From positions 53,522-117,521 of the forward strand of contig CAMPDV010001296.1 in NCBI GenBank assembly GCA_946699065.1: a DNA stretch of 64,000 nt. Reading direction: 5' to 3'. The position numbers were made by a program, and so were the translations under genes. The stretch's first letter is position 1. Every line of letters starts with the position of its first letter. This document shows positions 1-64,000 of the stretch, piece by piece. Origin of the DNA: Loxodes magnus (lineage: Eukaryota; Ciliophora; Karyorelictea; Loxodida; Loxodidae). The notes below the pieces were generated by a model that had not been told where the DNA came from, ran no database searches, and worked only from the letters and a program-made list of their open reading frames with translations.

Positions 1-3000
1 GGAAGTCATGATTATACGGTGAGAATATGGGACGTCAAGACAGGTACCTGTAAGACCATGAGTGGTCACACTAGTTATGTATGATCTGTGGCTATATCCA
101 GTGATTCAGAGTTCATCGTATCGGGAAGTAGTGATTTGACGGTGAGACTATGGGACGTCAAGACAGGTACCTGTAAGACCATGAGTGGTCACACAAATTA
201 GGTATGATCTGTGGCTATATCCAGTGATTCAGAGTTCATCGTATCGGGAAGTCATGATTATACGGTGAGAATATGGGACGTCAAGACAGGTACCTGTAAG
301 ACCATGAGTGGTCACACTAGTTAAGTATGATCTGTGGCTATATCCAGTGATTCAGAGTTCATCGTATCGGGAAGTGGAGATAATACGGTGAGACTATGGG
401 ACGTCAAGACAGGTACCTGTAAGACCATGAGTGGTCACACTAGTTATGTATGATCTGTGGCTATATCCAGTGATTCAGAGTTCATCGTATCGGGAAGTGG
501 AGATAATACGGTGAGACTATGGGACGTCAAGACAGGTACCTGTAAGACCATGAGTGGTCACACTAGTTATGTATGATCTGTGGCTATATCCAGTGATTCA
601 GAGTTCATCGTATCGGGAAGTCATGATTATACGGTGAGAATATGGGACGTCAAGACAGGTACCTGTAAGACCATGAGTGGTCACACTAGTTATGTATGAT
701 CTGTGGCTATATCCAGTGATTCAGAGTTCATCGTATCGGGAAGTAGTGATGAGACGGTGAGACTATGGGACGTCAAGACAGGTACCAGTAAGACCATGAG
801 TGGTCACACTAGTTATGTAAGATCTGTGGCTATATCCAGTGATTCAGAGTTCATCGTATCGGGAAGTGGAGATAATACGGTGAGACTATGGGACGTCAAG
901 ACAGGTACCTGTAAGACCATGAGTGGTCACACTAGTTAAGTATGATCTGTGGCTATATCCAGTGATTCAGAGTTCATCGTATCGGGAAGTGGAGATAATA
1001 CGGTGAGACTATGGGACGTCAAGACAGGTACCTGTAAGACCATGAGTGGTCACACTAGTTATGTATGATCTGTGGCTATATCCAGTGATTCAGAGTTCAT
1101 CGTATCGGGAAGTGGAGATAATACGGTGAGACTATGGGACGTCAAGACAGGTACCTGTAAGACCATGAGTGGTCACACTAGTTATGTAAGATCTGTGGCT
1201 ATATCCAGTGATTCAGAGTTCATCGTATCGGGAAGTGGAGATAATACGGTGAGACTATGGGACGTCAAGACAGGTACCTGTAAGACCATGAGTGGTCACA
1301 CTAGTTATGTATGATCTGTGGCTATATCCAGTGATTCAGAGTTCATCGTATCGGGAAGTAGTGATTTGACGGTGAGACTATGGGACGTCAAGACAGGTAC
1401 CAGTAAGACCATGAGTGGTCACACTAGTTATGTATTATCTGTGGCTATATCCAGTGATTCAGAGTTCATCGTATCGGGAAGTGATGATTTGACGGTGAGA
1501 CTATGGGACGTCAAGACAGGTACCTGTAAGACCATGAGTGGTCACACTAGTTATGTATGATCTGTGGCTATATCCAGTGATTCAGAGTTCATCGTATCGG
1601 GAAGTCATGATTATACGGTGAGAATATGGGACGTCAAGACAGGTACCTGTAAGACCATGAGTGGTCACACTAGTTAAGTATGATCTGTGGCTATATCCAG
1701 TGATTCAGAGTTCATCGTATCGCGAAGTAGTGATGAGACGGTGAGACTATGGGACGTCAAGACAGGTACCAGTAAGACCATGAGTGGTCACACTAGTTAT
1801 GTAAGATCTGTGGCTATATCCAGTGATTCAGAGTTCATCGTATCGGGAAGTAGTGATGAGACGGTGAGACTATGGGACGTCAAGACAGGTACCAGTAAGA
1901 CCATGAGTGGTCACACTAGTTATGTAAGATCTGTGGCTATATCCAGTGATTCAGAGTTCATCGTATCGGGAAGTGGAGATAATACGGTGAGACTATGGGA
2001 CGTCAAGACAGGTACCTGTAAGACCATGAGTGGTCACACTAGTTATGTATGATCTGTGGCTATATCCAGTGATTCAGAGTTCATCGTATCGGGAAGTAGT
2101 GATGAGACGGTGAGACTATGGGACGTCAAGACAGGTACCTGTAAGACCATGAGTGGTCACACTAGTTATGTATGATCTGTGGCTATATCCAGTGATTCAG
2201 AGTTCATCGTATCGGGAAGTTGTGATAATACGGTGAGACTATGGGACGTCAAGACAGGTACCTGTAAGACCATGAGTGGTCACACTAGTTATGTATGATC
2301 AGTGGCTATATCCAGTGATTCAGAGTTCATCGTATCGGGAAGTAGTGATGAGACGGTGAGACTATGGGACGTCAAGACAGGTACCAGTAAGACCATGAGT
2401 GGTCACACTAGTTATGTAAGATCTGTGGCTATATCCAGTGATTCAGAGTTCATCGTATCGGGAAGTGGAGATAATACGGTGAGACTATGGGACGTCAAGA
2501 CAGGTACCTGTAAGACCATGAGTGGTCACACTAGTTATGTAAGATCTGTGGCTATATCCAGTGATTCAGAGTTCATCGTATCGGGAAGTTGTGATGAGAC
2601 GGTGAGAATATGGGACGTCAAGACAGGTACCTGTAAGACCATGAGTGGTCACACTAGTTAAGTATGATCTGTGGCTATATCCAGTGATTCAGAGTTCATC
2701 GTATCGGGAAGTTTAGATGAGACGGTGAGAATATGGGACGTCAAGACAGGTACCTGTAAGACCATGAGTGGTCACACAAATTAGGTATGATCTGTGGCTA
2801 TATCCAGTGATTCAGAGTTCATCGTATCGGGAAGTCATGATTATACGGTGAGAATATGGGACGTCAAGACAGGTACCTGTAAGACCATGAGTGGTCACAC
2901 TAGTTATGTATGATCTGTGGCTATATCCAGTGATTCAGAGTTCATCGTATCGGGAAGTAGTGATGAGACGGTGAGACTATGGGACGTCAAGACAGGTACC

Positions 3001-6000
3001 TGTAAGACCATGAGTGGTCACACTAGTTATGTATGATCTGTGGCTATATCCAGTGATTCAGAGTTCATCGTATCGGGAAGTTTAGATGAGACGGTGAGAA
3101 TATGGGACGTCAAGACAGGTACCTGTAAGACCATGAGTGGTCACACAAATTAGGTATGATCTGTGGCTATATCCAGTGATTCAGAGTTCATCGTATCGGG
3201 AAGTCATGATTATACGGTGAGAATATGGGACGTCAAGACAGGTACCTGTAAGACCATGAGTGGTCACACTAGTTAAGTATGATCTGTGGCTATATCCAGT
3301 GATTCAGAGTTCATCGTATCGGGAAGTGGAGATAATACGGTGAGACTATGGGACGTCAAGACAGGTACCTGTAAGACCATGAGTGGTCACACTAGTTATG
3401 TATGATCTGTGGCTATATCCAGTGATTCAGAGTTCATCGTATCGGGAAGTTGTGATGAGACGGTGAGACTATGGGACGTCAAGACAGGTACCTGTAAGAC
3501 CATGAGTGGTCACACTAGTTATGTAAGATCTGTGGCTATATCCAGTGATTCAGAGTTCATCGTATCGGGAAGTAGTGATGAGACGGTGAGACTATGGGAC
3601 GTCAAGACAGGTACCTGTAAGACCATGAGTGGTCACACTAGTTATGTATGATCTGTGGCTATATCCAGTGATTCAGAGTTCATCGTATCGGGAAGTAGTG
3701 ATGAGACGGTGAGACTATGGGACGTCAAGACAGGTACCTGTAAGACCATGAGTGGTCACACTAGTTATTTATGATCTGTGGCTATATCCAGTGATTCAGA
3801 GTTCATCGTATCGGGAAGTAGTGATTTGACGGTGAGACTATGGGACGTCAAGACAGGTACCTGTAAGACCATGAGTGGTCACACTAGTTATGTATTATCT
3901 GTGGCTATATCCAGTGATTCAGAGTTCATCGTATCGGGAAGTGATGATTTGACGGTGAGACTATGGGACGTCAAGACAGGTACCTGTAAGACCATGAGTG
4001 GTCACACTAGTTATGTATGATCTGTGGCTATATCCAGTGATTCAGAGTTCATCGTATCGGGAAGTCATGATTATACGGTGAGAATATGGGACGTCAAGAC
4101 AGGTACCTGTAAGACCATGAGTGGTCACACTAGTTAAGTATGATCTGTGGCTATATCCAGTGATTCAGAGTTCATCGTATCGGGAAGTAGTGATGAGACG
4201 GTGAGACTATGGGACGTCAAGACAGGTACCAGTAAGACCATGAGTGGTCACACTAGTTATGTAAGATCTGTGGCTATATCCAGTGATTCAGAGTTCATCG
4301 TATCGGGAAGTAGTGATGAGACGGTGAGACTATGGGACGTCAAGACAGGTACCAGTAAGACCATGAGTGGTCACACTAGTTATGTAAGATCTGTGGCTAT
4401 ATCCAGTGATTCAGAGTTCATCGTATCGGGAAGTGGAGATAATACGGTGAGACTATGGGACGTCAAGACAGGTACCTGTAAGACCATGAGTGGTCACACT
4501 AGTTATGTATGATCTGTGGCTATATCCAGTGATTCAGAGTTCATCGTATCGGGAAGTGGAGATACGGTGAGACTATGGGACGTCAAGACAGGTACCAGTA
4601 AGACCATGAGTGGTCACACTAGTTATGTATGATCTGTGGCTATATCCAGTGATTCAGAGTTCATCGTATCGGGAAGTAGTGATTTGACGGTGAGACTATG
4701 GGACGTCAAGACAGGTACCTGTAAGACCATGAGTGGTCACACAAATTAGGTATGATCTGTGGCTATATCCAGTGATTCAGAGTTCATCGTATCGGGAAGT
4801 AGTGATGAGACGGTGAGACTATGGGACGTCAAGACAGGTACCTGTAAGACCATGAGTGGTCACACTAGTTAAGTATGATCTGTGGCTATATCCAGTGATT
4901 CAGAGTTCATCGTATCGGGAAGTAGTGATGAGACGGTGAGACTATGGGACGTCAAGACAGGTACCAGTAAGACCATGAGTGGTCACACTAGTTATGTAAG
5001 ATCTGTGGCTATATCCAGTGATTCAGAGTTCATCGTATCGGGAAGTTGTGATAATACGGTGAGACTATGGGACGTCAAGACAGGTACCAGTAAGACCATG
5101 AGTGGTCACACTAGTTATGTATTATCTGTGGCTATATCCAGTGATTCAGAGTTCATCGTATCGGGAAGTTGAGATAATACGGTGAGACTATGGGACGTCA
5201 AGACAGGTACCTGTAAGACCATGAGTGGTCACACTAGTTATGTATGATCTGTGGCTATATCCAGTGATTCAGAGTTCATCGTATCGGGAAGTTGTGATAA
5301 TACGGTGAGACTATGGGACGTCAAGACAGGTACCTGTAAGACCATGAGTGGTCACACTAGTTATGTATGATCAGTGGCTATATCCAGTGATTCAGAGTTC
5401 ATCGTATCGGGAAGTAGTGATGAGACGGTGAGACTATGGGACGTCAAGACAGGTACCAGTAAGACCATGAGTGGTCACACTAGTTATGTAAGATCTGTGG
5501 CTATATCCAGTGATTCAGAGTTCATCGTATCGGGAAGTAGTGATGAGACGGTGAGACTATGGGACGTCAAGACAGGTACCAGTAAGACCATGAGTGGTCA
5601 CACTAGTTATGTAAGATCTGTGGCTATATCCAGTGATTCAGAGTTCATCGTATCGGGAAGTGGAGATAATACGGTGAGACTATGGGACGTCAAGACAGGT
5701 ACCTGTAAGACCATGAGTGGTCACACTAGTTATGTATGATCTGTGGCTATATCCAGTGATTCAGAGTTCATCGTATCGGGAAGTCATGATTATACGGTGA
5801 GAATATGGGACGTCAAGACAGGTACCTGTAAGACCATGAGTGGTCACACTAGTTAAGTATGATCTGTGGCTATATCCAGTGATTCAGAGTTCATCGTATC
5901 GGGAAGTGGAGATAATACGGTGAGACTATGGGACGTCAAGACAGGTACCTGTAAGACCATGAGTGGTCACACTAGTTATGTATGATCTGTGGCTATATCC

Positions 6001-6399
6001 AGTGATTCAGAGTTCATCGTATCGGGAAGTTGTGATGAGACGGTGAGACTATGGGACGTCAAGACAGGTACCTGTAAGACCATGAGTGGTCACACTAGTT
6101 ATGTATGATCTGTGGCTATATCCAGTGATTCAGAGTTCATCGTATCGGGAAGTCATGATTATACGGTGAGACTATGGGACGTCAAGACAGGTACCAGTAA
6201 GACCATGAGTGGTCACACTAGTTATGTAAGATCTGTGGCTATATCCAGTGATTCAGAGTTCATCGTATCGGGAAGTGGAGATAATACGGTGAGACTATGG
6301 GACGTCAAGACAGGTTCCAGTAAGACCATGAGTGGTCACACTAGTTATGTATGATCTGTGGCTATATCCAGTGATTCAGAGTTCATCGTATCGGGAAGT
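1..6399 (+). CDS. WD40-repeat frame block 1 (partial, open at the 5' edge)
   Basis: About 52 WD40 units are read in one frame with codons starting at base 1. The block begins inside a unit (GSHDYTV) and has no initiation region. It is rich in in-frame stops: in the first 22 units position 41 is TGA 15 times, AGA (Arg) 6 times and TTA (Leu) once, and TAA or TAG often stands two codons earlier. Under the standard code the longest runs are about 121 codons, for example 1687-2052, 4147-4512 and 5374-5739. Under TGA=Trp and TAA/TAG=Gln the block is fully open. One codon (unit position 18) is missing at 4563/4564, and TGA stands at position 16 near 5170. The block ends at a 1-bp deletion after 6399. 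WD40 proteins are usually scaffolds; no effector domain is present, so the role is unknown. It could equally be a decayed array. Confidence 0.45.
3778..4512 (+). repeat. Segmental duplicate of 1318-2052 (20-unit offset)
   Basis: The order S-D-L, D-D-L, H-D-Y, S-D-E, S-D-E, G-D-N with matching position-41 codons and the same TGA and TAA interruptions occurs at both places, exactly 2,460 bp apart. Small differences (Ser versus Cys at 30 in the first unit; CGA for GGA at 1723 in the first copy only) show later divergence. Confidence 0.85.
4558..4566 (+). other. In-frame loss of one codon (unit position 18)
   Basis: The unit reads GGA-GAT-ACG where all comparable units have GGA-GAT-AAT-ACG. Exactly three bases are missing, so this unit is 120 bp and the WD40 frame is kept. 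It also explains why the otherwise ten-unit offset between 4147 and 5374 is 1,227 rather than 1,230 bp. It is the only in-frame indel I found. Confidence 0.9.
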
Positions 6400-6404
6400 A
6401 TGAT
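6397..6404 (+). other. 1-bp deletion (AGTCATGAT to AGTATGAT) shifting the WD40 frame
   Basis: An H-D-Y unit has lost the C of CAT at position 16. The WD40 frame moves from codons at 1 modulo 3 to 0 modulo 3. It is not in a homopolymer and I saw no second copy, so it looks like an isolated mutation. Confidence 0.92.
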
Positions 6405-9400
6405 TATACGGTGAGAATATGGGACGTCAAGACAGGTACCTGTAAGACCATGAGTGGTCACACAAGTTATGTATGATCAGTGGCTATATCCAGTGATTCA
6501 GAGTTCATCGTATCGGGAAGTAGTGATGAGACGGTGAGACTATGGGACGTCAAGACAGGTACCTGTAAGACCATGAGTGGTCACACTAGTTATGTATGAT
6601 CTGTGGCTATATCCAGTGATTCAGAGTTCATCGTATCGGGAAGTTGTGATGAGACGGTGAGACTATGGGACGTCAAGACAGGTACCAGTAAGACCATGAG
6701 TGGTCACACTAGTTATGTAAGATCTGTGGCTATATCCAGTGATTCAGAGTTCATCGTATCGGGAAGTGGAGATAATACGGTGAGACTATGGGACGTCAAG
6801 ACAGGTACCAGTAAGACCATGAGTGGTCACACTAGTTATGTATGATCTGTGGCTATATCCAGTGATTCAGAGTTCATCGTATCGGGAAGTCATGATTATA
6901 CGGTGAGAATATGGGACGTCAAGACAGGTACCTGTAAGACCATGAGTGGTCACACTAGTTATGTATTATCTGTGGCTATATCCAGTGATTCAGAGTTCAT
7001 CGTATCGGGAAGTGGAGATTAGACGGTGAGACTATGGGACGTCAAGACAGGTACCAGTAAGACCATGAGTGGTCACACTAGTTATGTATGATCTGTGGCT
7101 ATATCCAGTGATTCAGAGTTCATCGTATCGGGAAGTAGTGATTTGACGGTGAGAATATGGGACGTCAAGACAGGTACCTGTAAGACCATGAGTGGTCACA
7201 CTAGTTATGTATGATCTGTGGCTATATCCAGTGATTCAGAGTTCATTGTATCGGGAAGTAGTGATGAGACGGTGAGACTATGGGACGTCAAGACAGGTAC
7301 CTGTAAGACCATGAGTGGTCACACTAGTTAAGTATGATCTGTGGCTATATCCAGTGATTCAGAGTTCATCGTATCGGGAAGTGGAGATAATACGGTGAGA
7401 CTATGGGACGTCAAGACAGGTACCTGTAAGACCATGAGTGGTCACACTAGTTATGTATGATCTGTGGCTATATCCAGTGATTCAGAGTTCATTGTATCGG
7501 GAAGTGCAGATTAGACGGTGAGAATATGGGACGTCAAGACAGGTACCTGTAAGACCATGAGTGGTCACACTAGTTATGTATTATCTGTGGCTATATCCAG
7601 TGATTCAGAGTTCATCGTATCGGGAAGTGGAGATTAGACGGTGAGACTATGGGACGTCAAGACAGGTACCAGTAAGACCATGAGTGGTCACACTAGTTAT
7701 GTATGATCTGTGGCTATATCCAGTGATTCAGAGTTCATCGTATCGAGAAGTCATGATTATACGGTGAGAATATGGGACGTCAAGACAGGTACCTGTAAGA
7801 CCATGAGTGGTCACACTAGTTATGTATGATCTGTGGCTATATCCAGTGATTCAGAGTTCATCGTATCGGGAAGTAGTGATGAGACGGTGAGACTATGGGA
7901 CGTCAAGACAGGTACCTGTAAGACCATGAGTGGTCACACTAGTTATGTAAGATCTGTGGCTATATCCAGTGATTCAGAGTTCATCGTATCGGGAAGTGGA
8001 GATAATACGGTGAGACTATGGGACGTCAAGACAGGTACCTGTAAGACCATGAGTGGTCACACTAGTTATGTATGATCTGTGGCTATATCCAGTGATTCAG
8101 AGTTCATTGTATCGGGAAGTGCAGATTAGACGGTGAGACTATGGGACGTCAAGACAGGTACCTGTAAGACCATGAGTGGTCACACTAGTTATGTAAGATC
8201 TGTGGCTATATCCAGTGATTCAGAGTTCATCGTATCGGGAAGTAGTGATTTGACGGTGAGACTATGGGACGTCAAGACAGGTACCTGTAAGACCATGAGT
8301 GGTCACACTAGTTATGTATGATCTGTGGCTATATCCAGTGATTCAGAGTTCATTGTATCGGGAAGTGCAGATTAGACGGTGAGACTATGGGACGTCAAGA
8401 CAGGTACCAGTAAGACCATGAGTGGTCACACTAGTTATGTAAGATCTGTGGCTATATCCAGTGATTCAGAGTTCATCGTATCGGGAAGTAGTGATTTGAC
8501 GGTGAGAATATGGGACGTCAAGACAGGTACCTGTAAGACCATGAGTGGTCACACTAGTTATGTATGATCTGTGGCTATATCCAGTGATTCAGAGTTCATC
8601 GTATCGGGAAGTTGTGATAATACGGTGAGACTATGGGACGTCAAGACAGGTACCTGTAAGACCATGAGTGGTCACACAAATTAGGTATGATCTGTGGCTA
8701 TATCCAGTGATTCAGAGTTCATCGTATCGGGAAGTTGTGATAATACGGTGAGACTATGGGACGTCAAGACAGGTACCTGTAAGACCATGAGTGGTCACAC
8801 TAGTTATGTATGATCTGTGGCTATATCCAGTGATTCAGAGTTCATCGTATCGGGAAGTTGTGATAATACGGTGAGACTATGGGACGTCAAGACAGGTACC
8901 TGTAAGACCATGAGTGGTCACACTAGTTATGTAAGATCTGTGGCTATATCCAGTGATTCAGAGTTCATCGTATCGGGAAGTGATGATTTGACGGTGAGAA
9001 TATGGGACGTCAAGACAGGTACCTGTAAGACCATGAGTGGTCACACTAGTTATGTATGATCTGTGGCTATATCCAGTGATTCAGAGTTCATCGTATCGGG
9101 AAGTAGTGATGAGACGGTGAGACTATGGGACGTCAAGACAGGTACCTGTAAGACCATGAGTGGTCACACTAGTTATGTAAGATCTGTGGCTATATCCAGT
9201 GATTCAGAGTTCATCGTATCGGGAAGTAGTGATTTGACGGTGAGACTATGGGACGTCAAGACAGGTACCTGTAAGACCATGAGTGGTCACACTAGTTAAG
9301 TATGATCTGTGGCTATATCCAGTGATTCAGAGTTCATCGTATCGGGAAGTAGTGATGAGACGGTGAGACTATGGGACGTCAAGACAGGTACCTGTAAGAC

Positions 9401-12400: not shown

Positions 12401-14598
12401 TTCAGAGTTCATCGTATCGGGAAGTGCAGATTAGACGGTGAGACTATGGGACGTCAAGACAGGTACCAGTAAGACCATGAGTGGTCACACTAGTTAAGTA
12501 TGATCTGTGGCTATATCCAGTGATTCAGAGTTCATCGTATCGGGAAGTTGTGATAATACGGTGAGACTATGGGACGTCAAGACAGGTACCTGTAAGACCA
12601 TGAGTGGTCACACTAGTTATGTATTATCTGTGGCTATATCCAGTGATTCAGAGTTCATCGTATCGGGAAGTTGTGATAATACGGTGAGACTATGGGACGT
12701 CAAGACAGGTACCTGTAAGACCATGAGTGGTCACACAAATTAGGTATGATCTGTGGCTATATCCAGTGATTCAGAGTTCATCGTATCGGGAAGTAGTGAT
12801 GAGACGGTGAGACTATGGGACGTCAAGACAGGTACCTGTAAGACCATGAGTGGTCACACTAGTTAAGTATGATCTGTGGCTATATCCAGTGATTCAGAGT
12901 TCATCGTATCGGGAAGTAGTGATGAGACGGTGAGACTATGGGACGTCAAGACAGGTACCAGTAAGACCATGAGTGGTCACACTAGTTATGTAAGATCTGT
13001 GGCTATATCCAGTGATTCAGAGTTCATCGTATCGGGAAGTCATGATTATACGGTGAGAATATGGGACGTCAAGACAGGTACCTGTAAGACCATGAGTGGT
13101 CACACTAGTTGTTTATCATCTGTGGCTATATCCAGTGATTCAGAGTTCATCGTATCGGGAAGTGGAGATAATACGGTGAGAATATGGGACGTCAAGACAG
13201 GTACCTGTAAGACCATGAGTGGTCACACTAGTTAAGTATGATCTGTGGCTATATCCAGTGATTCAGAGTTCATCGTATCGGGAAGTAGTGATGAGACGGT
13301 GAGACTATGGGACGTCAAGACAGGTACCAGTAAGACCATGAGTGGTCACACTAGTTGTTTATCATCTGTGGCTATATCCAGTGATTCAGAGTTCATCGTA
13401 TCAGGAAGTTTAAATGAGACGGTGAGACTATGGGACGTCAAGACAGGTACCTGTAAGACCATGAGTGGTCACACTAGTTATGTATTATCTGTGGCTATAT
13501 CCAGTGATTCAGAGTTCATCGTATCGGGAAGTTGTGATAATACGGTGAGACTATGGGACGTCAAGACAGGTACCAGTAAGACCATGAGTGGTCACACTAG
13601 TTATGTAAGATCTGTGGCTATATCCAGTGATTCAGAGTTCATCGTATCGGGAAGTTGTGATAATACGGTGAGACTATGGGACGTCAAGACAGGTACCTGT
13701 AAGACCATGAGTGGTCACACAAATTAGGTATGATCTGTGGCTATATCCAGTGATTCAGAGTTCATCGTATCGGGAAGTTGTGATGAGACGGTGAGAATAT
13801 GGGACGTCAAGACAGGTACCTGTAAGACCATGAGTGGTCACACTAGTTAAGTATGATCTGTGGCTATATCCAGTGATTCAGAGTTCATCGTATCGGGAAG
13901 TCATGATTATACGGTGAGACTATGGGACGTCAAGACAGGTACCAGTAAGACCATGAGTGGTCACACTAGTTATGTATTATCTGTGGCTATATCCAGTGAT
14001 TCAGAGTTCATCGTATCGGGAAGTTGTGATAATACGGTGAGACTATGGGACGTCAAGACAGGTACCAGTAAGACCATGAGTGGTCACACTAGTTATGTAA
14101 GATCTGTGGCTATATCCAGTGATTCAGAGTTCATCGTATCGGGAAGTAGTGATGAGACGGTGAGACTATGGGACGTCAAGACAGGTACCTGTAAGACCAT
14201 GAGTGGTCACACTAGTCAAGTATGATCTGTGGCTATATCCAGTGATTCAGAGTTCATCGTATCGGGAAGTCATGATTATACGGTGAGACTATGGGACGTC
14301 AAGACAGGTACCAGTAAGACCATGAGTGGTCACACTAGTTATGTATGATCTGTGGCTATATCCAGTGATTCAGAGTTCATCGTATCGGGAAGTAGTGATG
14401 AGACGGTGAGACTATGGGACGTCAAGACAGGTACCAGTAAGACCATGAGTGGTCACACTAGTTATGTAAGATCTGTGGCTATATCCAGTGATTCAGAGTT
14501 CATCGTATCGGGAAGTGCAGATTTGACGGTGAGACTATGGGACGTCAAGACAGGTACCTGTAAGACAATGAGTGGTCACACAAATTAGGTATGATCTG
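6400..14598 (+). CDS. WD40-repeat frame block 2
   Basis: About 66 WD40 units are read with codons starting at multiples of three (for example GAT at 6402). Several units carry TAG at position 18 (A-D-stop near 7509, 8124, 8370, 10092 and 12060; G-D-stop near 7018), alongside sense codons at that site in other units. Standard-code stretches reach 160 codons (13245-13727). Unusual alleles include L-N-E with a linked synonymous TCA (10326 and 13401), and the only in-frame CAA I found at position 39 (about 14216), where other units have TAT, TAA or TAG. Sporadic changes of Gly14 occur (AGA near 7744, AAA near 11805). The block ends in a unit that has lost one T (CTGTGGC to CTGGGC, 14597-14601). 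The coding reading depends on stop reassignment; otherwise this is a pseudogene-like array. Confidence 0.45.
13245..13610 (+). repeat. Segmental duplicate of 10170-10535 (25-unit offset)
   Basis: S-D-E with Cys-Leu-Ser at 39-41, then L-N-E with linked synonymous TCA at Ser13, then C-D-N occur in the same order 3,075 bp apart. The rare L-N-E/TCA combination (10326 and 13401) makes common descent clear. Confidence 0.87.
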
Positions 14599-14602
14599 GG
14601 CT
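14595..14602 (+). other. 1-bp deletion (TCTGTGGCT to TCTGGGCT) shifting the WD40 frame
   Basis: The T of the invariant Val2 GTG is missing in a unit that follows an aca-aat-TAG-gta-TGA junction. The frame moves from 0 to 2 modulo 3. No other copy was seen. Confidence 0.92.
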
Positions 14603-16399
14603 ATATCCAGTGATTCAGAGTTCATTGTATCGGGAAGTAGTGATGAGACGGTGAGACTATGGGACGTCAAGACAGGTACCTGTAAGACCATGAGTGGTCA
14701 CACAAATTAGGTATGATCTGTGGCTATATCCAGTGATTCAGAGTTCATTGTATCGGGAAGTAGTAATGAGACGGTGAGACTATGGGACGTCAAGACAGGT
14801 ACCTGTAAGACCATGAGTGGTCACACTAGTTAAGTATGATCTGTGGCTATATCCAGTGATTCAGAGTTCATCGTATCGGGAAGTGATGATTTGACGGTGA
14901 GAATATGGGACGTCAAGACAGGTACCAGTAAGACCATGAGTGGTCACACTAGTTATGTATGATCTGTGGCTATATCCAGTGATTCAGAGTTCATCGTATC
15001 GGGAAGTGGAGATAATACGGTGAGACTATGGGACGTCAAGACAGGTACCTGTAAGACCATGAGTGGTCACACTAGTTATGTAAGATCTGTGGCTATATCC
15101 AGTGATTCAGAGTTCATCGTATCGGGAAGTTGTGATGAGACGGTGAGAATATGGGACGTCAAGACAGGTACCTGTAAGACCATGAGTGGTCACACTAGTT
15201 AAGTATGATCTGTGGCTATATCCAGTGATTCAGAGTTCATCGTATCGGGAAGTCATGATTATACGGTGAGACTATGGGACGTCAAGACAGGTACCAGTAA
15301 GACCATGAGTGGTCACACTAGTTATGTATTATCTGTGGCTATATCCAGTGATTCAGAGTTCATCGTATCGGGAAGTTGTGATAATACGGTGAGACTATGG
15401 GACGTCAAGACAGGTACCAGTAAGACCATGAGTGGTCACACTAGTTATGTAAGATCTGTGGCTATATCCAGTGATTCAGAGTTCATCGTATCGGGAAGTG
15501 GAGATAATACGGTGAGACTATGGGACGTCAAGACAGGTACCTGTAAGACTATGAGTGGTCACACAAATTAGGTATGATCTGTGGCTATATCCAGTGATTC
15601 AGAGTTCATTGTATCGGGAAGTAGTGATGAGACGGTGAGACTATGGGACGTCAAGACAGGTACCTGTAAGACCATGAGTGGTCACACAAATTAGGTATGA
15701 TCTGTGGCTATATCCAGTGATTCAGAGTTCATTGTATCGGGAAGTAGTGATGAGACGGTGAGACTATGGGACGTCAAGACAGGTACCTGTAAGACCATGA
15801 GTGGTCACACTAGTTAAGTATGATCTGTGGCTATATCCAGTGATTCAGAGTTCATCGTATCGGGAAGTAGTGATGAGACGGTGAGACTATGGGACGTCAA
15901 GACAGGTACCTGTAAGACCATGAGTGGTCACACTAGTTATGTATGATCTGTGGCTATATCCAGTGATTCAGAGTTCATCGTATCGGGAAGTGGAGATGAG
16001 ACGGTGAGACTATGGGACGTCAAGACAGGTACCTGTAAGACCATGAGTGGTCACACTAGTTATGTATTATCTGTGGCTATATCCAGTGATTCAGAGTTCA
16101 TCGTATCGGGAAGTAGTGATAATACGGTGAGAATATGGGACGTCAAGACAGGTACCTGTAAGACCATGAGTGGTCACACTAGTTAAGTATGATCTGTGGC
16201 TATATCCAGTGATTCAGAGTTCATCGTATCGGGAAGTTGTGATAATACGGTGAGACTATGGGACGTCAAGACAGGTACCTGTAAGACCATGAGTGGTCAC
16301 ACTAGTTATGTATTATCTGTGGCTATATCCAGTGATTCAGAGTTCATCGTATCGGGAAGTTTAGATAAGACGGTGAGACTATGGGACGTCAAGACAGGT
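14599..16399 (+). CDS. WD40-repeat frame block 3
   Basis: About 14.6 WD40 units lie in the frame with codons starting at 2 modulo 3. The first units are mostly of the aca-aat-TAG-gta-TGA type, so the standard-code frame is shut until 14966. Open runs after that are 78-119 codons. Several units carry ATT instead of ATC at Ile11, a synonymous marker shared by neighbours. One unit has S-N-E at 16-18 near 14764, and one has G-D-E near 15993. The block ends on a Leu-Asp-Lys unit bearing the recurrent GGTAC-TGTAAG deletion. It is flanked by deletions on both sides, so a single continuous WD40 reading would need frame restoration at each edge. Confidence 0.42.
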
Positions 16400-16404
16400 A
16401 CTGT
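16397..16404 (+). other. Recurrent GGTACC-to-GGTAC deletion, copy 1 (Leu-Asp-Lys unit)
   Basis: One C is missing in Thr29 of an L-D-K unit. The next bases TGTAAG are normal, so the WD40 frame shifts by one. In the standard code the old frame ends a few codons later at TGA (reading T-V-R-P). This is the first of nine identical lesions. Confidence 0.93.
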
Positions 16405-18735
16405 AAGACCATGAGTGGTCACACTAGTTATGTAAGATCTGTGGCTATATCCAGTAATTCAGAGTTCATCGTATCGGGAAGTTGTGATAATACGGTGAGA
16501 CTATGGGACGTCAAGACAGGTACCTGTAAGACCATGAGTGGTCACACTAGTTGTTTATCATCTGTGGCTATATCCAGTGATTCAGAGTTCATCGTATCGG
16601 GAAGTTGTGATAATACGGTGAGACTATGGGACGTCAAGACAGGTACCTGTAAGACCATGAGTGGTCACACTAGTTATGTATTATCTGTGGCTATATCCAG
16701 TGATTCAGAGTTCATCGTATCGGGAAGTTGTGATAATACGGTGAGAATATGGGACGTCAAGACAGGTACCTGTAAGACCATGAGTGGTCACACTAGTTAA
16801 GTATGATCTGTGGCTATATCCAGTGATTCAGAGTTCATCGTATCGGGAAGTAGTGATTTGACGGTGAGACTATGGGACGTCAAGACAGGTACCTGTAAGA
16901 CCATGAGTGGTCACACAAATTAGGTATGATCTGTGGCTATATCCAGTGATTCAGAGTTCATCGTATCGGGAAGTTGTGATAATACGGTGAGAATATGGGA
17001 CGTCAAGACAGGTACCTGTAAGACTATGAGTGGTCACACTAGTTATGTATTATCTGTGGCTATATCCAGTGATTCAGAGTTCATCGTATCGGGAAGTGAT
17101 GATTTGACGGTGAGAATATGGGACGTCAAGACAGGTACCTGTAAGACCATGAGTGGTCACACTAGTTATGTATGATCTGTGGCTATATCCAGTGATTCAG
17201 AGTTCATCGTATCGGGAAGTTGTGATAATACGGTGAGACTATGGGACGTCAAGACAGGTACCAGTAAGACCATGAGTGGTCACACTAGTTATGTAAGATC
17301 TGTGGCTATATCCAGTGATTCAGAGTTCATCGTATCGGGAAGTCATGATTATACGGTGAGAATATGGGACGTCAAGACAGGTACCTGTAAGACCATGAGT
17401 GGTCACACTAGTTATGTATTATCTGTGGCTATATCCAGTGATTCAGAGTTCATCGTATCGGGAAGTTGTGATAATACGGTGAGACTATGGGACGTCAAGA
17501 CAGGTACCTGTAAGACCATGAGTGGTCACACTAGTTATGTATTATCTGTGGCTATATCCAGTGATTCAGAGTTCATCGTATCGGGAAGTTGTGATAATAC
17601 GGTGAGAATATGGGACGTCAAGACAGGTACCTGTAAGACCATGAGTGGTCACACTAGTTAAGTATGATCTGTGGCTATATCCAGTGATTCAGAGTTCATC
17701 GTATCGGGAAGTTGTGATAATACGGTGAGACTATGGGACGTCAAGACAGGTACCTGTAAGACCATGAGTGGTCACACTAGTTATGTATTATCTGTGGCTA
17801 TATCCAGTGATTCAGAGTTCATCGTATCGGGAAGTAGTGATGAGACGGTGAGACTATGGGACGTCAAGACAGGTACCTGTAAGACTATGAGTGGTCACAC
17901 TAGTTATGTATTATCTGTGGCTATATCCAGTGATTCAGAGTTCATCGTATCGGGAAGTGATGATTTGACGGTGAGAATATGGGACGTCAAGACAGGTACC
18001 TGTAAGACTATGAGTGGTCACACAAATTAGGTATGATCTGTGGCTATATCCAGTGATTCAGAGTTCATCGTATCGGGAAGTGGAGATAATACGGTGAGAC
18101 TATGGGACGTCAAGACAGGTACCAGTAAGACCATGAGTGGTCACACTAGTTATGTAAGATCTGTGGCTATATCCAGTGATTCAGAGTTCATCGTATCGGG
18201 AAGTCATGATTATACGGTGAGAATATGGGACGTCAAGACAGGTACCTGTAAGACTATGAGTGGTCACACTAGTTATGTATTATCTGTGGCTATATCCAGT
18301 GATTCAGAGTTCATCGTATCGGGAAGTTGTGATAATACGGTGAGACTATGGGACGTCAAGACAGGTACCAGTAAGACCATGAGTGGTCACACTAGTTATG
18401 TATTATCTGTGGCTATATCCAGTGATTCAGAGTTCATCGTATCGGGAAGTTGTGATAATACGGTGAGACTATGGGACGTCAAGACAGGTACCAGTAAGAC
18501 CATGAGTGGTCACACTAGTTATGTATTATCTGTGGCTATATCCAGTGATTCAGAGTTCATCGTATCGGGAAGTAGTGATGAGACGGTGAGACTATTGGAC
18601 GTCAAGACAGGTACCTGTAAGACCATGAGTGGTCACACTAGTTATGTATTATCTGTGGCTATATCCAGTAATTCAGAGTTCATCGTATCGGGAAGTTTAG
18701 ATAAGACGGTGAGACTATGGGACGTCAAGACAGGT
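16400..18735 (+). CDS. WD40-repeat frame block 4
   Basis: Nineteen WD40 units lie in frame 1 between two copies of the same GGTAC deletion. Few units carry TGA. Standard-code runs of 139-160 codons (up to 16800; 17179-17661) and one of 236 codons (18040-18750) are present. The commonest blade variant is C-D-N at 16-18, usually followed by TTA (Leu) at 41. Synonymous ACT for ACC at Thr32 becomes common here, marking a subfamily that continues through the central region. At 18595 the conserved Trp23 codon TGG is TTG (Leu), a non-canonical change for the WD dipeptide. Two units have AAT for GAT at position 7 (S-S-N-S). The block ends at the deletion at 18736-18737. Confidence 0.45.
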
Positions 18736-18740
18736 ACTGT
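18733..18740 (+). other. Recurrent GGTACC-to-GGTAC deletion, copy 2 (Leu-Asp-Lys unit)
   Basis: The same lesion on the same unit type. The next unit has AAT-TAT-GTA-TAT-GCT, also found after copy 3, and the preceding unit has S-S-N-S in both cases. Copies 2 and 3 therefore belong to one duplicated segment. Confidence 0.93.
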
Positions 18741-44558: not shown

Positions 44559-44563
44559 ACTGT
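44556..44563 (+). other. Recurrent GGTACC-to-GGTAC deletion, copy 9 (Leu-Asp-Lys unit)
   Basis: Same lesion one unit after copy 8; the two 122-bp units stand in direct tandem. No further copy was seen downstream of this point. Confidence 0.93.
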
Positions 44564-47500
44564 AAGACCATGAGTGGTCACACTAGTTATGTATGATCTG
44601 TGGCTATATCCAGTGATTCAGAGTTCATCGTATCGGGAAGTGGAGATAATACGGTGAGACTATGGGACGTCAAGACAGGTACCAGTAAGACCATGAGTGG
44701 TCACACTAGTTATGTATGATCTGTGGCTATATCCAGTGATTCAGAGTTCATCGTATCGGGAAGTAGTGATGAGACGGTGAGACTATGGGACGTCAAGACA
44801 GGTACCTGTAAGACTATGAGTGGTCACACTAGTTATGTATTATCTGTGGCTATATCCAGTGATTCAGAGTTCATCGTATCGGGAAGTTTAGATAAGACGG
44901 TGAGACTATGGGACGTCAAGACAGGTACCAGTAAGACCATGAGTGGTCACACTAGTTATGTAAGATCTGTGGCTATATCCAGTGATTCAGAGTTCATCGT
45001 ATCGGGAAGTAGTGATGAGACGGTGAGACTATGGGACGTCAAGACAGGTACCAGTAAGACCATGAGTGGTCACACTAGTTATGTAAGATCTGTGGCTATA
45101 TCCAGTGATTCAGAGTTCATCGTATCGGGAAGTGGAGATAAGACGGTGAGAATATGGGACGTCAAGACAGGTACCTGTAAGACCATGAGTGGTCACACTA
45201 GTTATGTATGATCTGTGGCTATATCCAGTGATTCAGAGTTCATCGTATCGGGAAGTAGTGATTTGACGGTGAGACTATGGGACGTCAAGACAGGTACCTG
45301 TAAGACCATGAGTGGTCACACAAATTAGGTATGATCTGTGGCTATATCCAGTGATTCAGAGTTCATCGTATCGGGAAGTAGTGATGAGACGGTGAGACTA
45401 TGGGACGTCAAGACAGGTACCAGTAAGACCATGAGTGGTCACACTAGTTATGTAAGATCTGTGGCTATATCCAGTGATTCAGAGTTCATCGTATCGGGAA
45501 GTGGAGATAATACGGTGAGACTATGGGACGTCAAGACAGGTAGCTGTAAGACCATGAGTGGTCACACTAGTTATGTATCATCTGTGAATATATCCAGTGA
45601 TTCAGAGTTCATCGTATCGGGAAGTGGAGATTATACGGTGAGACTATGGGACGTCAAGACAGGTACCTGTAAGACCATGAGTGGTCACACTAGTTATGTA
45701 TCATCTGTGAATATATCCAGTGATTCAGAGTTCATCGTATCGGGAAGTAATGATTATACGGTGAGACTATGGGACGTCAAGACAGGTACCTGTAAGACCA
45801 TGAGTGGTCACACTAGTTGTTTATCATCTGTGGCTATATCCAGTGATTCAGAGTTCATCGTATCGGGAAGTGATGATTTGACGGTGAGACTATGGGACGT
45901 CAAGACAGGTACCAGTAAGACCATGAGTGGTCACACTAGTTATGTATGATCTGTGGCTATATCCAGTGATTCAGAGTTCATCGTATCGGGAAGTAGTGAT
46001 GAGACGGTGAGACTATGGGACGTCAAGACAGGTACCTGTAAGACCATGAGTGGTCACACTAGTTATGTAAGATCTGTGGCTATATCCAGTGATTCAGAGT
46101 TCATCGTATCGGGAAGTTGTGATAATACGGTGAGACTATGGGACGTCAAGACAGGTACCAGTAAGACCATGAGTGGTCACACTAGTTATGTATTATCTGT
46201 GGCTATATCCAGTGATTCAGAGTTCATCGTATCGGGAAGTTGTGATGAGACGGTGAGACTATGGGACGTCAAGACAGGTACCTGTAAGACCATGAGTGGT
46301 CACACTAGTTATGTATTATCTGTGGCTATATCCAGTGATTCAGAGTTCATCGTATCGGGAAGTGGAGATAATACGGTGAGAATATGGGACGTCAAGACAG
46401 GTACCTGTAAGACCATGAGTGGTCACACTAGTTATGTATTATCTGTGGCTATATCCAGTGATTCAGAGTTCATCGTATCGGGAAGTGGAGATAATACGGT
46501 GAGACTATGGGACGTCAAGACAGGTACCAGTAAGACCATGAGTGGTCACACTAGTTATGTATGATCTGTGGCTATATCCAGTGATTCAGAGTTCATCGTA
46601 TCGGGAAGTAGTGATTTGACGGTGAGACTATGGGACGTCAAGACAGGTACCTGTAAGACCATGAGTGGTCACACAAATTAGGTATGATCTGTGGCTATAT
46701 CCAGTGATTCAGAGTTCATCGTATCGGGAAGTAGTGATGAGACGGTGAGACTATGGGACGTCAAGACAGGTACCTGTAAGACCATGAGTGGTCACACTAG
46801 TTATGTAAGATCTGTGGCTATATCCAGTGATTCAGAGTTCATCGTATCGGGAAGTGGAGATAATACGGTGAGACTATGGGACGTCAAGACAGGTACCAGT
46901 AAGACCATGAGTGGTCACACTAGTTATGTAAGATCTGTGGCTATATCCAGTGATTCAGAGTTCATCGTATCGGGAAGTGGAGATAATACGGTGAGAATAT
47001 GGGACGTCAAGACAGGTACCTGTAAGACCATGAGTGGTCACACTAGTTGTTTATCATCTGTGGCTATATCCAGTGATTCAGAGTTCATCGTATCGGGAAG
47101 TAGTGATTTGACGGTGAGACTATGGGACGTCAAGACAGGTACCTGTAAGACCATGAGTGGTCACACAAATTAGGTATGATCTGTGGCTATATCCAGTGAT
47201 TCAGAGTTCATCGTATCGGGAAGTAGTGATGAGACGGTGAGACTATGGGACGTCAAGACAGGTACCTGTAAGACCATGAGTGGTCACACTAGTTATGTAT
47301 GATCTGTGGCTATATCCAGTGATTCAGAGTTCATCGTATCGGGAAGTAGTGATTTGACGGTGAGACTATGGGACGTCAAGACAGGTACCTGTAAGACCAT
47401 GAGTGGTCACACAAATTAGGTATGATCTGTGGCTATATCCAGTGATTCAGAGTTCATCGTATCGGGAAGTGGAGATAATACGGTGAGACTATGGGACGTC

Positions 47501-56500: not shown

Positions 56501-56977
56501 ATGAGTGGTCACACAAATCCTGTAAGATCTGTGGCTATATCCAGTGATTCAGAGTTCATCGTATCGGGAAGTAGTGATGAGACGGTGAGACTATGGGACG
56601 TCAAGACAGGTACCTGTAAGACCATGAGTGGTCACACTAGTTATGTAAGATCTGTGGCTATATCCAGTGATTCAGAGTTCATCGTATCGGGAAGTAGAGA
56701 TGAGACGGTGAGACTATGGGACGTCAAGACAGGTACCTGTAAGACCATGAGTGGTCACACTAGTTATGTATAATCTGTGGCTATATCCAGTGATTCAGAG
56801 TTCATCGTATCGGGAAGTCATGATTATACGGTAAGACTATGGAACGTCAAGACAGGTAGCTGTAAGACCATGAGTGGTCACAGACATTATGTATTATCTG
56901 CGGCTATATCCAGTGATTCAGAGTTCATCGTATCGGGAAGTTATGATTATACGGTGAGACTATGGGACGTCAAGACA
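44559..56977 (+). CDS. WD40-repeat frame block 12
   Basis: About 101 WD40 units run without an indel for 12.4 kb (codons at 2 modulo 3). Standard-code runs reach 203 codons (45338-45949, 45953-46564, 54194-54805, 55178-55789, 56162-56773). TGA at 41 and TAG at 39 separate them. Special units include two with GTG-AAT-ATA (V-N-I) near 45590 and 45713, two with GTG/GTA-ACT variants (V-T-I) near 49028 and 52964, and one with TGA in place of Gly14 (53246). Two have Pro at position 39 (N-P-V, 55412 and 56519), two have Phe at 30 (55631 and 56246), and one has TAA at position 41 (56771). Several internal duplications are listed separately. The block ends in a strongly diverged unit at a deletion near 56978. 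Confidence 0.47.
45702..46191 (+). repeat. Dispersed four-unit module, copy 2 of 4
   Basis: Same module as at 24061. Here the first unit is N-D-Y and has V-N-I in place of V-A-I. Confidence 0.8.
49274..50995 (+). repeat. Partial ten-unit (1,230 bp) duplication
   Basis: C-D-E, TGA, G-D-N (Ile22), G-D-N, TGA, S-D-L, TAG occur in the same order from about 49274 and from about 50504. The units starting at 49397 and 50627 translate identically. The intervening units differ, so this is a duplication overlaid by exchange. Confidence 0.8.
49884..50373 (+). repeat. Dispersed four-unit module, copy 3 of 4
   Basis: Same module; the first unit is S-D-E. The unit after TGA has GAT for GAG at position 9 (Glu to Asp, about 50156), which I saw nowhere else. 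Confidence 0.8.
53451..53940 (+). repeat. Dispersed four-unit module, copy 4 of 4
   Basis: Same module; the first unit is H-D-Y, as in copy 1, and the second is G-D-L instead of D-D-L. The four units that follow TGA (S-D-E, C-D-N, S-D-E, C-D-E) match copy 3, 29 units upstream. Confidence 0.8.
55178..56773 (+). repeat. Shuffled duplication with 5-unit and 9-unit offsets
   Basis: Two rare markers are each present twice but with different spacing. Phe30 (ACC-TTT-AAG) starts TTT at 55631 and 56246 (615 bp, 5 units), and the adjacent L-N-E/TCA unit follows at the same offset (55703 and 56318). Pro39 (AAT-CCT) is at 55412 and 56519 (1,107 bp, 9 units). The two sub-segments have therefore swapped order between copies. 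Confidence 0.85.
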
Positions 56978-56983
56978 GTAGCT
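56975..56983 (+). other. 1-bp deletion ACAGGTAGC to ACAGTAGC, copy 1
   Basis: One G of Gly28 is lost in a diverged unit that also has AGC at 29 and AAA at 32. The WD40 frame shifts from 2 to 1 modulo 3. This lesion differs from the GGTAC deletion and arose independently. Confidence 0.9.
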
Positions 56984-57099
56984 GTAAGAAAATGAGTGGT
57001 CACACTAGTTATGTATGATCTGTGGCTATATCCAGTGATTCAGAGTTCATCGTATCGGGAAGTTGAGATAAGACGGTGAGACTATGGGACGTCAAGACA
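56978..57099 (+). CDS. WD40-repeat frame block 13 (single diverged unit between two deletions)
   Basis: One unit lies between two identical lesions (ACAGGTAGC to ACAGTAGC) 122 bp apart. It carries AGC at 29, AAA for ACC at Thr32 (K-K-M), and TGA at position 16 (57064-57066), which would read S-W-D-K under TGA=Trp. The two lesions share the rare AGC and AAA changes, so one diverged, damaged unit was duplicated in tandem. Confidence 0.4.
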
Positions 57100-57105
57100 G
57101 TAGCT
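57097..57105 (+). other. 1-bp deletion ACAGGTAGC to ACAGTAGC, copy 2
   Basis: The same lesion with the same linked AGC and AAA changes, 122 bp downstream. It is a tandem duplicate of the preceding damaged unit and returns the WD40 frame to 0 modulo 3. Confidence 0.9.
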
Positions 57106-60100
57106 GTAAGAAAATGAGTGGTCACACTAGTTATGCATGATCTGTGGCTATATCCACTGATTCAGAGTTCATCGTATCGGGAAGTGATGATAAGACGGTA
57201 AGACTATGGAACGTCAAGACAGGTACCTGTAAGACCATGAGTGGTCACACTAGTTATGTAAGATCTGTGGCTATATCCAGTGATTCAGAGTTCATCGTAT
57301 CGGGAAGTAGTGATGAGACGGTGAGACTATGGGACGTCAAGACAGGTACCAGTAAGACCATGAGTGGTCACACTAGTTATGTATGATCAGTGGCTATATC
57401 CAGTGATTCAGAGTTCATCGTATCGGGAAGTAGTGATGAGACGGTGAGACTATGGGACGTCAAGACAGGTACCAGTAAGACCATGAGTGGTCACACTAGT
57501 TATGTATGATCAGTGGCTATATCCAGTGATTCAGAGTTCATCGTATCGGGAAGTTGTGATGAGACGGTGAGACTATGGGACGTCAAGACAGGTACCTGTA
57601 AGACCATGAGTGGTCACACTAGTTATGTAAGATCTGTGGCTATATCCAGTGATTCAGAGTTCATCGTATCGGGAAGTTGTGATGAGACGGTGAGACTATG
57701 GGACGTCAAGACAGGTACCAGTAAGACCATGAGTGGTCACACTAGTTATGTATGATCTGTGGCTATATCCAGTGATTCAGAGTTCATTGTATCGGGAAGT
57801 GCAGATGAGACGGTGAGACTATGGGACGTCAAGACAGGTACCTGTAAGACCATGAGTGGTCACACTAGTTATGTATGATCTGTGGCTATATCCAGTGATT
57901 CAGAGTTCATCGTATCGGGAAGTAGTGATTTGACGGTGAGACTATGGGACGTCAAGACAGGTACCTGTAAGACCATGAGTGGTCACACTAGTTATGTATG
58001 ATCTGTGGCTATATCCAGTGATTCAGAGTTCATCGTATCGGGAAGTAGTGATTTGACGGTGAGACTATGGGACGTCAAGACAGGTACCTGTAAGACCATG
58101 AGTGGTCACACTAGTTATGTATGATCTGTGGCTATATCCAGTGATTCAGAGTTCATCGTATCGGGAAGTAGTGATTTGACGGTGAGACTATGGGACGTCA
58201 AGACAGGTACCAGTAAGACCATGAGTGGTCACACTAGTTATGTAAGATCTGTGGCTATATCCAGTGATTCAGAGTTCATCGTATCGGGAAGTGGAGATAA
58301 TACGGTGAGAATATGGGACGTCAAGACAGGTACCTGTAAGACCATGAGTGGTCACACTAGTTATGTATGATCTGTGGCTATATCCAGTGATTCAGAGTTC
58401 ATCGTATCGGGAAGTAGTGATGAGACGGTGAGACTATGGGACGTCAAGACAGGTACCAGTAAGACCATGAGTGGTCACACTAGTTATGTAAGATCTGTGG
58501 CTATATCCAGTGATTCAGAGTTCATCGTATCGGGAAGTGGAGATAATACGGTGAGACTATGGGACGTCAAGACAGGTACCAGTAAGACCATGAGTGGTCA
58601 CACTAGTTAAGTATGATCTGTGGCTATATCCAGTGATTCAGAGTTCATCGTATCGGGAAGTGATGATTTGACGGTGAGAATATGGGACGTCAAGACAGGT
58701 ACCTGTAAGACCATGAGTGGTCACACTAGTTATGTATGATCAGTGGCTATATCCAGTGATTCAGAGTTCATCGTATCGGGAAGTAGTGATGAGACGGTGA
58801 GACTATGGGACGTCAAGACAGGTACCAGTAAGACCATGAGTGGTCACACTAGTTATGTATGATCAGTGGCTATATCCAGTGATTCAGAGTTCATCGTATC
58901 GGGAAGTTGTGATGAGACGGTGAGACTATGGGACGTCAAGACAGGTACCTGTAAGACCATGAGTGGTCACACTAGTTATGTAAGATCTGTGGCTATATCC
59001 AGTGATTCAGAGTTCATCGTATCGGGAAGTTGTGATGAGACGGTGAGACTATGGGACGTCAAGACAGGTACCAGTAAGACCATGAGTGGTCACACTAGTT
59101 ATGTAAGATCTGTGGCTATATCCAGTGATTCAGAGTTCATCGTATCGTGAAGTGGAGATAATACGGTGAGACTATGGGACGTCAAGACAGGTACCAGTAA
59201 GACCATGAGTGGTCACACTAGTTAAGTATGATCTGTGGCTATATCCAGTGATTCAGAGTTCATCGTATCGGGAAGTGGAGATAATACGGTGAGACTATGG
59301 GACGTCAAGACAGGTACCAGTAAGACCATGAGTGGTCACACTAGTTATGTATGATCTGTGGCTATATCCAGTGATTCAGAGTTCATCGTATCGGGAAGTT
59401 GTGATGAGACGGTGAGACTATGGGACGTCAAGACAGGTACCTGTAAGACCATGAGTGGTCACACTAGTTATGTATTATCTGTGGCTATATCCAGTGATTC
59501 AGAGTTCATCGTATCGGGAAGTTGTGATGAGACGGTGAGACTATGGGACGTCAAGACAGGTACCAGTAAGACCATGAGTGGTCACACTAGTTATGTATGA
59601 TCAGTGGCTATATCCAGTGATTCAGAGTTCATCGTATCGGGAAGTTGTGATGAGACGGTGAGACTATGGGACGTCAAGACAGGTACCTGTAAGACCATGA
59701 GTGGTCACACTAGTTATGTATTATCTGTGGCTATATCCAGTGATTCAGAGTTCATCGTATCGGGAAGTGGAGATAATACGGTGAGACTATGGGACGTCAA
59801 GACAGGTACCAGTAAGACCATGAGTGGTCACACTAGTTATGTATGATCAGTGGCTATATCCAGTGATTCAGAGTTCATCGTATCGGGAAGTGGAGATAAT
59901 ACGGTGAGACTATGGGACGTCAAGACAGGTACCTGTAAGACCATGAGTGGTCACACTAGTTATGTAAGATCTGTGGCTATATCCAGTGATTCAGAGTTCA
60001 TCGTATCGGGAAGTTGTGATGAGACGGTGAGACTATGGGACGTCAAGACAGGTACCTGTAAGACCATGAGTGTCCACACTAGTTGTGTATGATCTGTGAA

Positions 60101-63100: not shown

Positions 63101-64000
63101 GGTGAGACTATGGGACGTCAAGACAGGTACCTGTAAGACCATGAGTGGTCACACTAGTTATGTAAGATCTGTGGCTATATCCAGTGATTCAGAGTTCATC
63201 GTATCGGGAAGTAGTGATTTGACGGTGAGACTATGGGACGTCAAGACAGGTACCAGTAAGACCATGAGTGGTCACACTAGTTATGTATTATCTGTGGCTA
63301 TATCCAGTGATTCAGAGTTCATCGTATCGGGAAGTGGAGATAATACGGTGAGAATATGGGACGTCAAGACAGGTACCTGTAAGACTATGAGTGGTCACAC
63401 TAGTTATGTATTATCTGTGGCTATATCCAGTGATTCAGAGTTCATCGTATCGGGAAGTGATGATTTGACGGTGAGAATATGGGACGTCAAGACAGGTACC
63501 TGTAAGACCATGAGTGGTCACACTAGTTATGTATGATCTGTGGCTATATCCAGTGATTCAGAGTTCATCGTATCGGGAAGTAGTGATGAGACGGTGAGAC
63601 TATGGGACGTCAAGACAGGTACCAGTAAGACCATGAGTGGTCACACTAGTTATGTAAGATCTGTGGCTATATCCAGTGATTCAGAGTTCATCGTATCGGG
63701 AAGTGGAGATAATACGGTGAGACTATGGGACGTCAAGACAGGTACCAGTAAGACCATGAGTGGTCACACTAGTTAAGTATGATCTGTGGCTATATCCAGT
63801 GATTCAGAGTTCATCGTATCGGGAAGTAGTGATTTGACGGTGAGACTATGGGACGTCAAGACAGGTACCTGTAAGACCATGAGTGGTCACACTAGTTATG
63901 TATGATCTGTGGCTATATCCAGTGATTCAGAGTTCATCGTATCGGGAAGTAGTGATGAGACGGTGAGAATATGGGACGTCAAGACAGGTACCTGTAAGAC
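57100..64000 (+). CDS. WD40-repeat frame block 14 (open at the 3' edge)
   Basis: About 56 WD40 units run in one frame (codons at multiples of three) to the window edge, with no terminal domain or stop context. Stop density is high again and standard-code runs are mostly 80 codons, the longest 162 (63048-63536). TCA rather than TCT at Ser1 after TGA is common here, a synonymous marker of this end. Odd units include TGA for Gly14 (59148), one unit with GTC for the Gly of GH plus Cys39 and V-N-I (60069-60115), and GCA for Gly14 near 62223. The array continues past 64000. Confidence 0.45.
58866..59223 (+). repeat. Segmental relative of 52964-53321 carrying TGA at Gly14 (48-unit offset)
   Basis: The rare TCG-TGA-AGT change (TGA at 53246 and 59148), followed by G-D-N with Ser30 and AGT-TAA-GTA-TGA, occurs twice 5,902 bp apart. 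That is 48 units minus the two 1-bp deletions near 57 kb. The preceding C-D-E units also match. Confidence 0.85.
60066..60116 (+). other. Aberrant unit junction lacking the GH glycine
   Basis: AGT-GTC-CAC replaces AGT-GGT-CAC, so Gly35 of the GH pair becomes Val. The same junction has TGT (Cys) at 39, TGA at 41 and GTG-AAT-ATA (V-N-I) in the next unit. The GH pair is otherwise nearly invariant in the window. Confidence 0.85.

Follow-up and report, generated by a model that had tools for sequence, protein, structure and literature searches.

TGA, TAA and TAG as sense codons in a tandem WD40 array of Loxodes magnus, a probable satellite related to ordinary-sized WD40 genes

The 64,000 nucleotides of Loxodes magnus DNA analysed here (the window) are probably satellite DNA of a karyorelict macronuclear genome, descended from a WD40 repeat unit that codes for protein and related to WD40 genes of ordinary size, a reading to which we give a probability of about 0.78. 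The unit carries TGA, TAA and TAG within its frame, codons that stand mostly for Trp (TGA) and Gln (TAA, TAG) in conserved genes of this assembly. An abundant WD40-derived satellite is the most likely nature of the array, more so than one giant gene, with satellite-like units found inside two genes of normal size.

A tandem array of WD40 units

The window (G000:C1296:53522-117521, forward strand) is a single unbroken tandem array from 1 to 64000, with a period of 123 b (41 codons), 520.5 copies and 95% matches, read on the forward strand and cut off on either side by the limits of the window. The contig from which it comes (117,521 b in total) is array throughout, both extremities included, thus neither end of the array is visible. 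Cutting the window at GGTCACA gave 518 intervals. The full 123 b is found in 503 of them, 13 have 122 b, and the other two measure 120 b and 246 b. The whole contig gave 953 intervals, with 938 at 123 b, the same 13 at 122 b, and again single ones of 120 b and 246 b. When translated with NCBI table 27, the 984 codons of window positions 1-2952 match the Pfam WD40 family (PF00400) at 815.2 bits, against a cut-off of 27. In an example unit at 64..186 (+) slots 0-1 are GGT CAC (Gly-His), slot 4 is the place of TAT, TAA or TAG, slot 6 that of TGA, AGA or TTA, slots 22 and 24 are variable and slot 29 holds the Trp of the WD motif. The G+C of the array is 0.44, with that of coding sequence in L. magnus reported to be lower at 33.5% (PMC11441545), a difference that counts against the origin preferred here. 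No tRNA was found in the 64,000-b window, and 6 kb of it searched in plasmids and phages gave no match.

The unit is not confined to this contig. Within the assembly (705,730,643 b in 7,843 contigs) a 36-b core of the unit is matched exactly 155,746 times in forward and 197,919 times in reverse orientation, 353,665 altogether, with none for the reversed control. Counting one core per unit of 123 b this is 43.5 Mb, or 6.2% of the assembly. The macronuclear assembly is described as 706 Mbp including 231 Mbp of tandem repeat, its authors suspect misassembly of repeats and a k-mer estimate puts the genome size at 261 Mbp (PMC11441545); the figure of 43.5 Mb is therefore valid for the assembly only, and the amount of array may be overstated by misassembly. 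If the core does stand for the unit and the assembly is right, about 6% of it is one protein-coding repeat unit turned satellite. Like satellite DNA, the units run head to tail at high copy number and are spread over many contigs, and variation is near neutral in the single array tested. Unlike usual satellite DNA, they have as monomer an intact protein repeat, the frame of which can be read under the code of the host. A literature search for Loxodes and WD40 together had no match, a WD40 satellite in a ciliate was not named among the matches listed, and WD40 is absent from the main text of the L. magnus paper (PMC11441545).

The genetic code of the host

The nuclear code of karyorelicts is NCBI table 27 (Seah et al. 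2022, as cited in PMC11441545), and in L. magnus UGA is given as the sole stop, one that can be read as Trp as well when it lies at a sufficient distance ahead of the poly-A tail (PMC11441545). A preliminary description of the window, made from its letters alone, had proposed that the host may read TAA and TAG as Gln and TGA as Trp, to be checked in conserved genes, and had named Condylostoma-type and karyorelict ciliates and Amoebophrya/Hematodinium-type dinoflagellates as groups with such codes. Tubulins of the same assembly bear out the code. Among 34 loci there were 26 different proteins, and the 20 of these with at least 40% identity to a tubulin of solved structure, alpha or beta, were kept. 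In this set of domains TAA stands opposite Gln 83 times in 109, TAG 11 times in 17, and TGA is opposite Trp in 10 of 12 cases, the rest being Arg and Asn. As controls, TGG is opposite Trp in 16 of 16 cases and CAA is opposite Gln 55 times and opposite other residues at least 7 times. The six excluded loci are more divergent and agree more poorly. Individual genes show the same pattern, with TAA/TAG opposite Gln in 3 of 3 places in an alpha-tubulin (L019), and TGA opposite Trp twice and Arg once in a beta-tubulin (L042).

HSP70 matches that are near end-to-end have 19 to 41 in-frame stop codons apiece, so tubulin and HSP70 genes alike carry these codons in frame and their use solely as terminators in housekeeping genes was not found. 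The code reading is correct for this host, with TAA and TAG mostly Gln and TGA mostly Trp as in table 27. It is already in print and is not new. As to the host, the karyorelict option holds and that of a dinoflagellate falls away.

The usual eRF1 motif is TASNIKS. In two eRF1-like genes (L062 and L063) R-A-Q-NIKS is seen, the Q of which is a reassigned stop codon.

Stop codons as alleles of the repeat unit

Stop codons were counted in the 503 full-length (123-b) units of the window, with the other 15 intervals left out. The WD40 frame contains 375 TGA, TAA and TAG codons in these units, compared to 1,198 and 2,384 in the remaining two forward frames. Slot 6 has 242 TGA, slot 4 has 66 TAG and 39 TAA, slot 24 has 24 TAG and only 4 are elsewhere. 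Adding 35 (mod 41) converts slots 6, 4 and 24 to positions 41, 39 and 18, the very positions to which the preliminary description had assigned nearly all TGA, TAA/TAG and TAG codons respectively, and 371 of the 375 do lie there. Its remark that the same positions have several sense alleles was also accurate, as slot 6 has TTA, AGA, TCA and TAT, slot 4 has TAT and TGT, and slot 24 has GAG, AAT, TTG, TAT and AAG. Slot 22 is equal in variability to the stop-bearing slots, yet has a single TGA. In the 938 units of the contig no stop occurs at slots 14, 15, 19, 27, 32, 36 and 37, where a single base change would turn the consensus codon into a stop.

Across the same 938 units, slot 6 has TGA 467, AGA 217 and TTA 191 times, and the WD-motif Trp at slot 29 is written TGG 923 and TGA 5 times, with Leu (TTG) in 8 units and Lys (AAG) in 2. 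TGA makes up 1.2% of array codons, about ten times the 0.120% reported for Parduczia (Swart et al. 2016, PMC4967479). The set of alleles is not the same in all arrays, as one on contig C29 (L064) has TAG at slot 24 in 22 of 31 units and TAT or TTA, with no TGA, at slot 6.

A further view of what these slots encode is given by bacterial WD40 relatives, which use the standard code. Nine loci were obtained with a profile made from array units in which the three stops were set to X, giving 108 aligned domains, of which the 98 with at least 30 residues were counted. At slot 6 Trp is first (28 of 98) and Arg second (22 of 98), which matches the array, where TGA outnumbers AGA. At slot 24 Gln is found in 15 of 98, tied for first with His (15 of 98), and slot 29 is Trp in 96 of 98. 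At slot 4 Gln is third (9 of 94), behind Trp (26) and Arg (21), thus the Gln reading there depends on the genome-wide code. The most mixed bacterial columns include slots 3, 4, 6, 22 and 24, all variable in the array, although the bacterial domains show almost as much variety at slots 15, 16 and 32, which are almost or fully fixed in the array.

Reading frame and selection along the array

Since table 27 has no absolute stop, openness is trivial in every frame and an open frame is no proof of a gene; by the same token frame loss leaves no stop-codon trace. The idea in the preliminary description that the array is an open giant gene was therefore considered from changes in unit length, from the variants that have accumulated and from the Trp of the WD motif, and all three count against it, with limited power.

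The sole change in the length of a single unit that is a multiple of three is the in-frame 3-b deletion of a 120-b unit at 4492..4611 (+). Against this one in-frame deletion the contig has 13 units that are one base short, in four distinct alleles, one of which is found in nine units. All are on the forward strand: allele 1 is at 6334..6455, where the WD40 frame shifts, and allele 2 at 14574..14695, both in units of 122 b. Allele 3, the common deletion, is carried by nine 122-b units within 16295..44575, starting at 16295, 18631, 38556, 40400, 41506, 42612, 43595, 44332 and 44454, and allele 4 is common to an adjacent pair of 122-b units at 56876..57119. The frame is thus not preserved along the array (13 of 953 intervals are of 122 b), though the left 59,854 b of the contig, some 486 units or ~19,950 codons, has no frame break. 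Other in-frame runs are of 8,240, 1,721, 2,336 and 19,925 b, one of 12,422 b, one of 7,003 b and shorter ones.

Frame breaks are found in two of three other array stretches, L064 having two intervals of 121 b together with intervals of 245 and 737 b, and L031 two of 125 b, with no out-of-step interval in L028. An exact 29-b word with allele 3, the commonest deletion allele of the contig, has 125 copies genome-wide, a rarity that might reflect selection, in most arrays, against units with a broken frame.

Rare variants were taken as those present in at most 10 copies, with eight variable slots (2, 3, 4, 6, 22, 24, 28 and 36) set aside, and comprise 29 nonsynonymous and 7 synonymous changes. The nonsynonymous share is 0.81 (95% interval 0.64-0.92, n=36), compared to a neutral expectation of 0.74-0.78, so that purifying selection on an array protein was not detected, at the limited power of such numbers. 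The ratios in the two parts of the contig are similar, at 18:5 and 21:5. At the Trp of the WD motif two matched mutations, each G to A, differ in outcome: a change of TGG to TGA leaves Trp in place, and one to TAG replaces it by Gln. Genome-wide, exact 30-b words at this codon number 1,416 with TGA and 1,145 with TAG, counts that are of copies rather than independent events and that cluster on contigs C29, C21 and C74 among the 100 places listed for each. The frame, the variant ratio and the WD Trp all point to arrays that have been freed from protein constraint, whereas the uninterrupted left part of the contig and the rarity of allele 3 genome-wide speak the other way.

Genes that carry the same unit

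Four places on large contigs were read, L028, L029, L030 and L031. Two are family genes, L029 at 1362-3596 on the plus strand and L030 at 2053-4497 on the minus strand, each with a RING-like Cys motif, then pentapeptide repeats and lastly seven WD40 stretches. In Pfam the RING is below the cut-off and the pentapeptide family (PF00805) above it in both. Both genes contain three exact satellite cores, 123 b apart, lying between diverged blades. L028 and L031 are array starts, the former adjoining another tandem repeat by eye. Upstream of the L031 array with its 125-b units there is a kinase-like sequence, broken in frame by eye, followed by WD40-like remnants.

The 182-codon linker of L030 was used in frame to search for further members, and 150 matches were scored out of 2,143 first-look candidates. 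All 150 have no in-frame TGA and nine or more TAA/TAG each. With an out-of-frame linker query, the match set of which is overlapping but not identical, each of 150 matches has 1-11 TGA. Set against table 27, the TGA-free linkers fit a codon that is kept scarce in genes.

By hand count 68 of the 150 start within 30 kb of a contig start. The minus strand has 58 of these and the plus strand 10, so that linker matches near contig starts mostly face outward. In six contigs (L065-L070) such a linker lies no more than 4.2 kb from the start, and the outermost 250 b of each is free of WD40 units; on these six ends a pentapeptide-headed giant gene that runs into the arrays was set aside. All six starts are AT-rich, repeats can be seen by eye in four, and they are possibly subtelomeric or assembly breaks.

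Likeness to fungal HNWD receptors

The HNWD genes of Podospora anserina (het-d, het-e and het-r) have highly identical WD40 repeats that undergo concerted evolution (PMC1805685, PMC12222747), and what these sources describe allows a comparison. The unit is of 41 residues here and 42 in HNWD. With an offset of +8 from array slot to HNWD position, fitted in this analysis, HNWD positions 11, 12, 14, 30 and 32 are the variable slots 3, 4, 6, 22 and 24 (PMC12222747). Five of the seven variable HNWD positions reported are thus clearly variable in protein in the array and two are not; position 10 is slot 2, where variation in the array is synonymous only, and position 39 is almost invariant. Conversely slots 28 and 36 vary in the array but are absent from the list of HNWD positions given there.

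In both the array host and Podospora units are common to several loci. The numbers differ, with ~70 units recorded in Podospora against the 353,665 core matches here, and long arrays outside the family genes are a feature of this host, unlike HNWD as those papers present it. L029 and L030 also have RING-like and pentapeptide parts, unlike the NACHT architecture ascribed to HNWD; no NACHT was among the hits at E<=1 to the N-terminal parts of the two genes. The WD40 gene family is best seen as evolving in the manner described for the fungal HNWD receptors (PMC1805685), a comparison by analogy.

Origin of the array

We infer that satellite arose from genes rather than genes from satellite. The ancestral unit would have been an exchangeable blade in a large family of WD40 genes of normal size, in which units are kept alike by concerted evolution whilst slots 3, 4, 6, 22 and 24, the codons predicted to face the binding surface of the propeller, vary. 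TGA, TAA and TAG may then have arisen and spread at the variable slots as normal sense alleles, given that in this host TAA/TAG stand for Gln and TGA for Trp. Expansion by unequal exchange would have given arrays, one of them >100 kb, that are probably untranslated and that retain the coding frame as a legacy, no longer being constrained to keep it.

A very different proposal is that there are one or several real giant genes, in which TGA, TAA and TAG are translated as Trp and Gln to give hundreds to thousands of WD40 repeats. The uninterrupted left part of the contig, the very strong WD40 match and the fact that the variable codons are those where WD40 receptors vary would all suit such genes, but the one-base alleles in the right part of the contig, one of them in nine units, would not, nor would a variant ratio that is near neutral in both parts or a WD Trp that is found as a Gln codon almost as frequently as TGA. 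The two family genes have seven WD40 stretches each rather than hundreds, and the outermost 250 b of six linker-bearing contigs are without a WD40 unit. We regard giant genes as very unlikely. A pseudogene array under the standard code, in which the three codons are nonsense mutations in dead repeats, would fit the apparent neutrality of the array, yet is barely credible when 371 of 375 stops are at three slots and none is at the seven others where a single change would make one. This pseudogene reading, as well as that of a contaminant with the standard code, was rejected because all three codons are sense codons in conserved genes of the assembly.

Variant surface antigens are diversified from silent gene copies, and by analogy the arrays might be a silent archive, with units copied into the blades of expressed RING-like/pentapeptide/WD40 genes to diversify a recognition surface. 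In its favour are the three exact cores between diverged blades in L029 and L030, the family with 150 scored matches from 2,143 candidates, and the concentration of variation at the slots of the binding surface. Exchange between active and inactive WD40 loci has been argued for in Podospora (PMC1805685). This role is nevertheless doubtful, as exchange may run from genes to arrays only, neutral decay in the arrays would make many units bad donors and the support comes from a single genome. That tens of Mb of WD40-unit arrays serve as silent donors, refreshing the blades of the gene family by gene conversion, is put forward as a tentative and unlikely suggestion. If true, a single cell would hold a recombining library of recognition-surface variants, with Trp alleles written as TGA and Gln alleles as TAA or TAG. 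The arrays offer a test case for whether silent copies feed a recognition gene family, and an extreme one both for concerted evolution between genes and satellites and for gene prediction with ambiguous codes.

Other tandem series in the assembly

Regular tandem series are also formed by tubulin and HSP70 genes, or pieces of them, at G000:C441:147748-175110, at C854:136105-162095 and on contigs C45 and C86. The spacing is ~3,342 b on C441 and ~2,119 b on C854.
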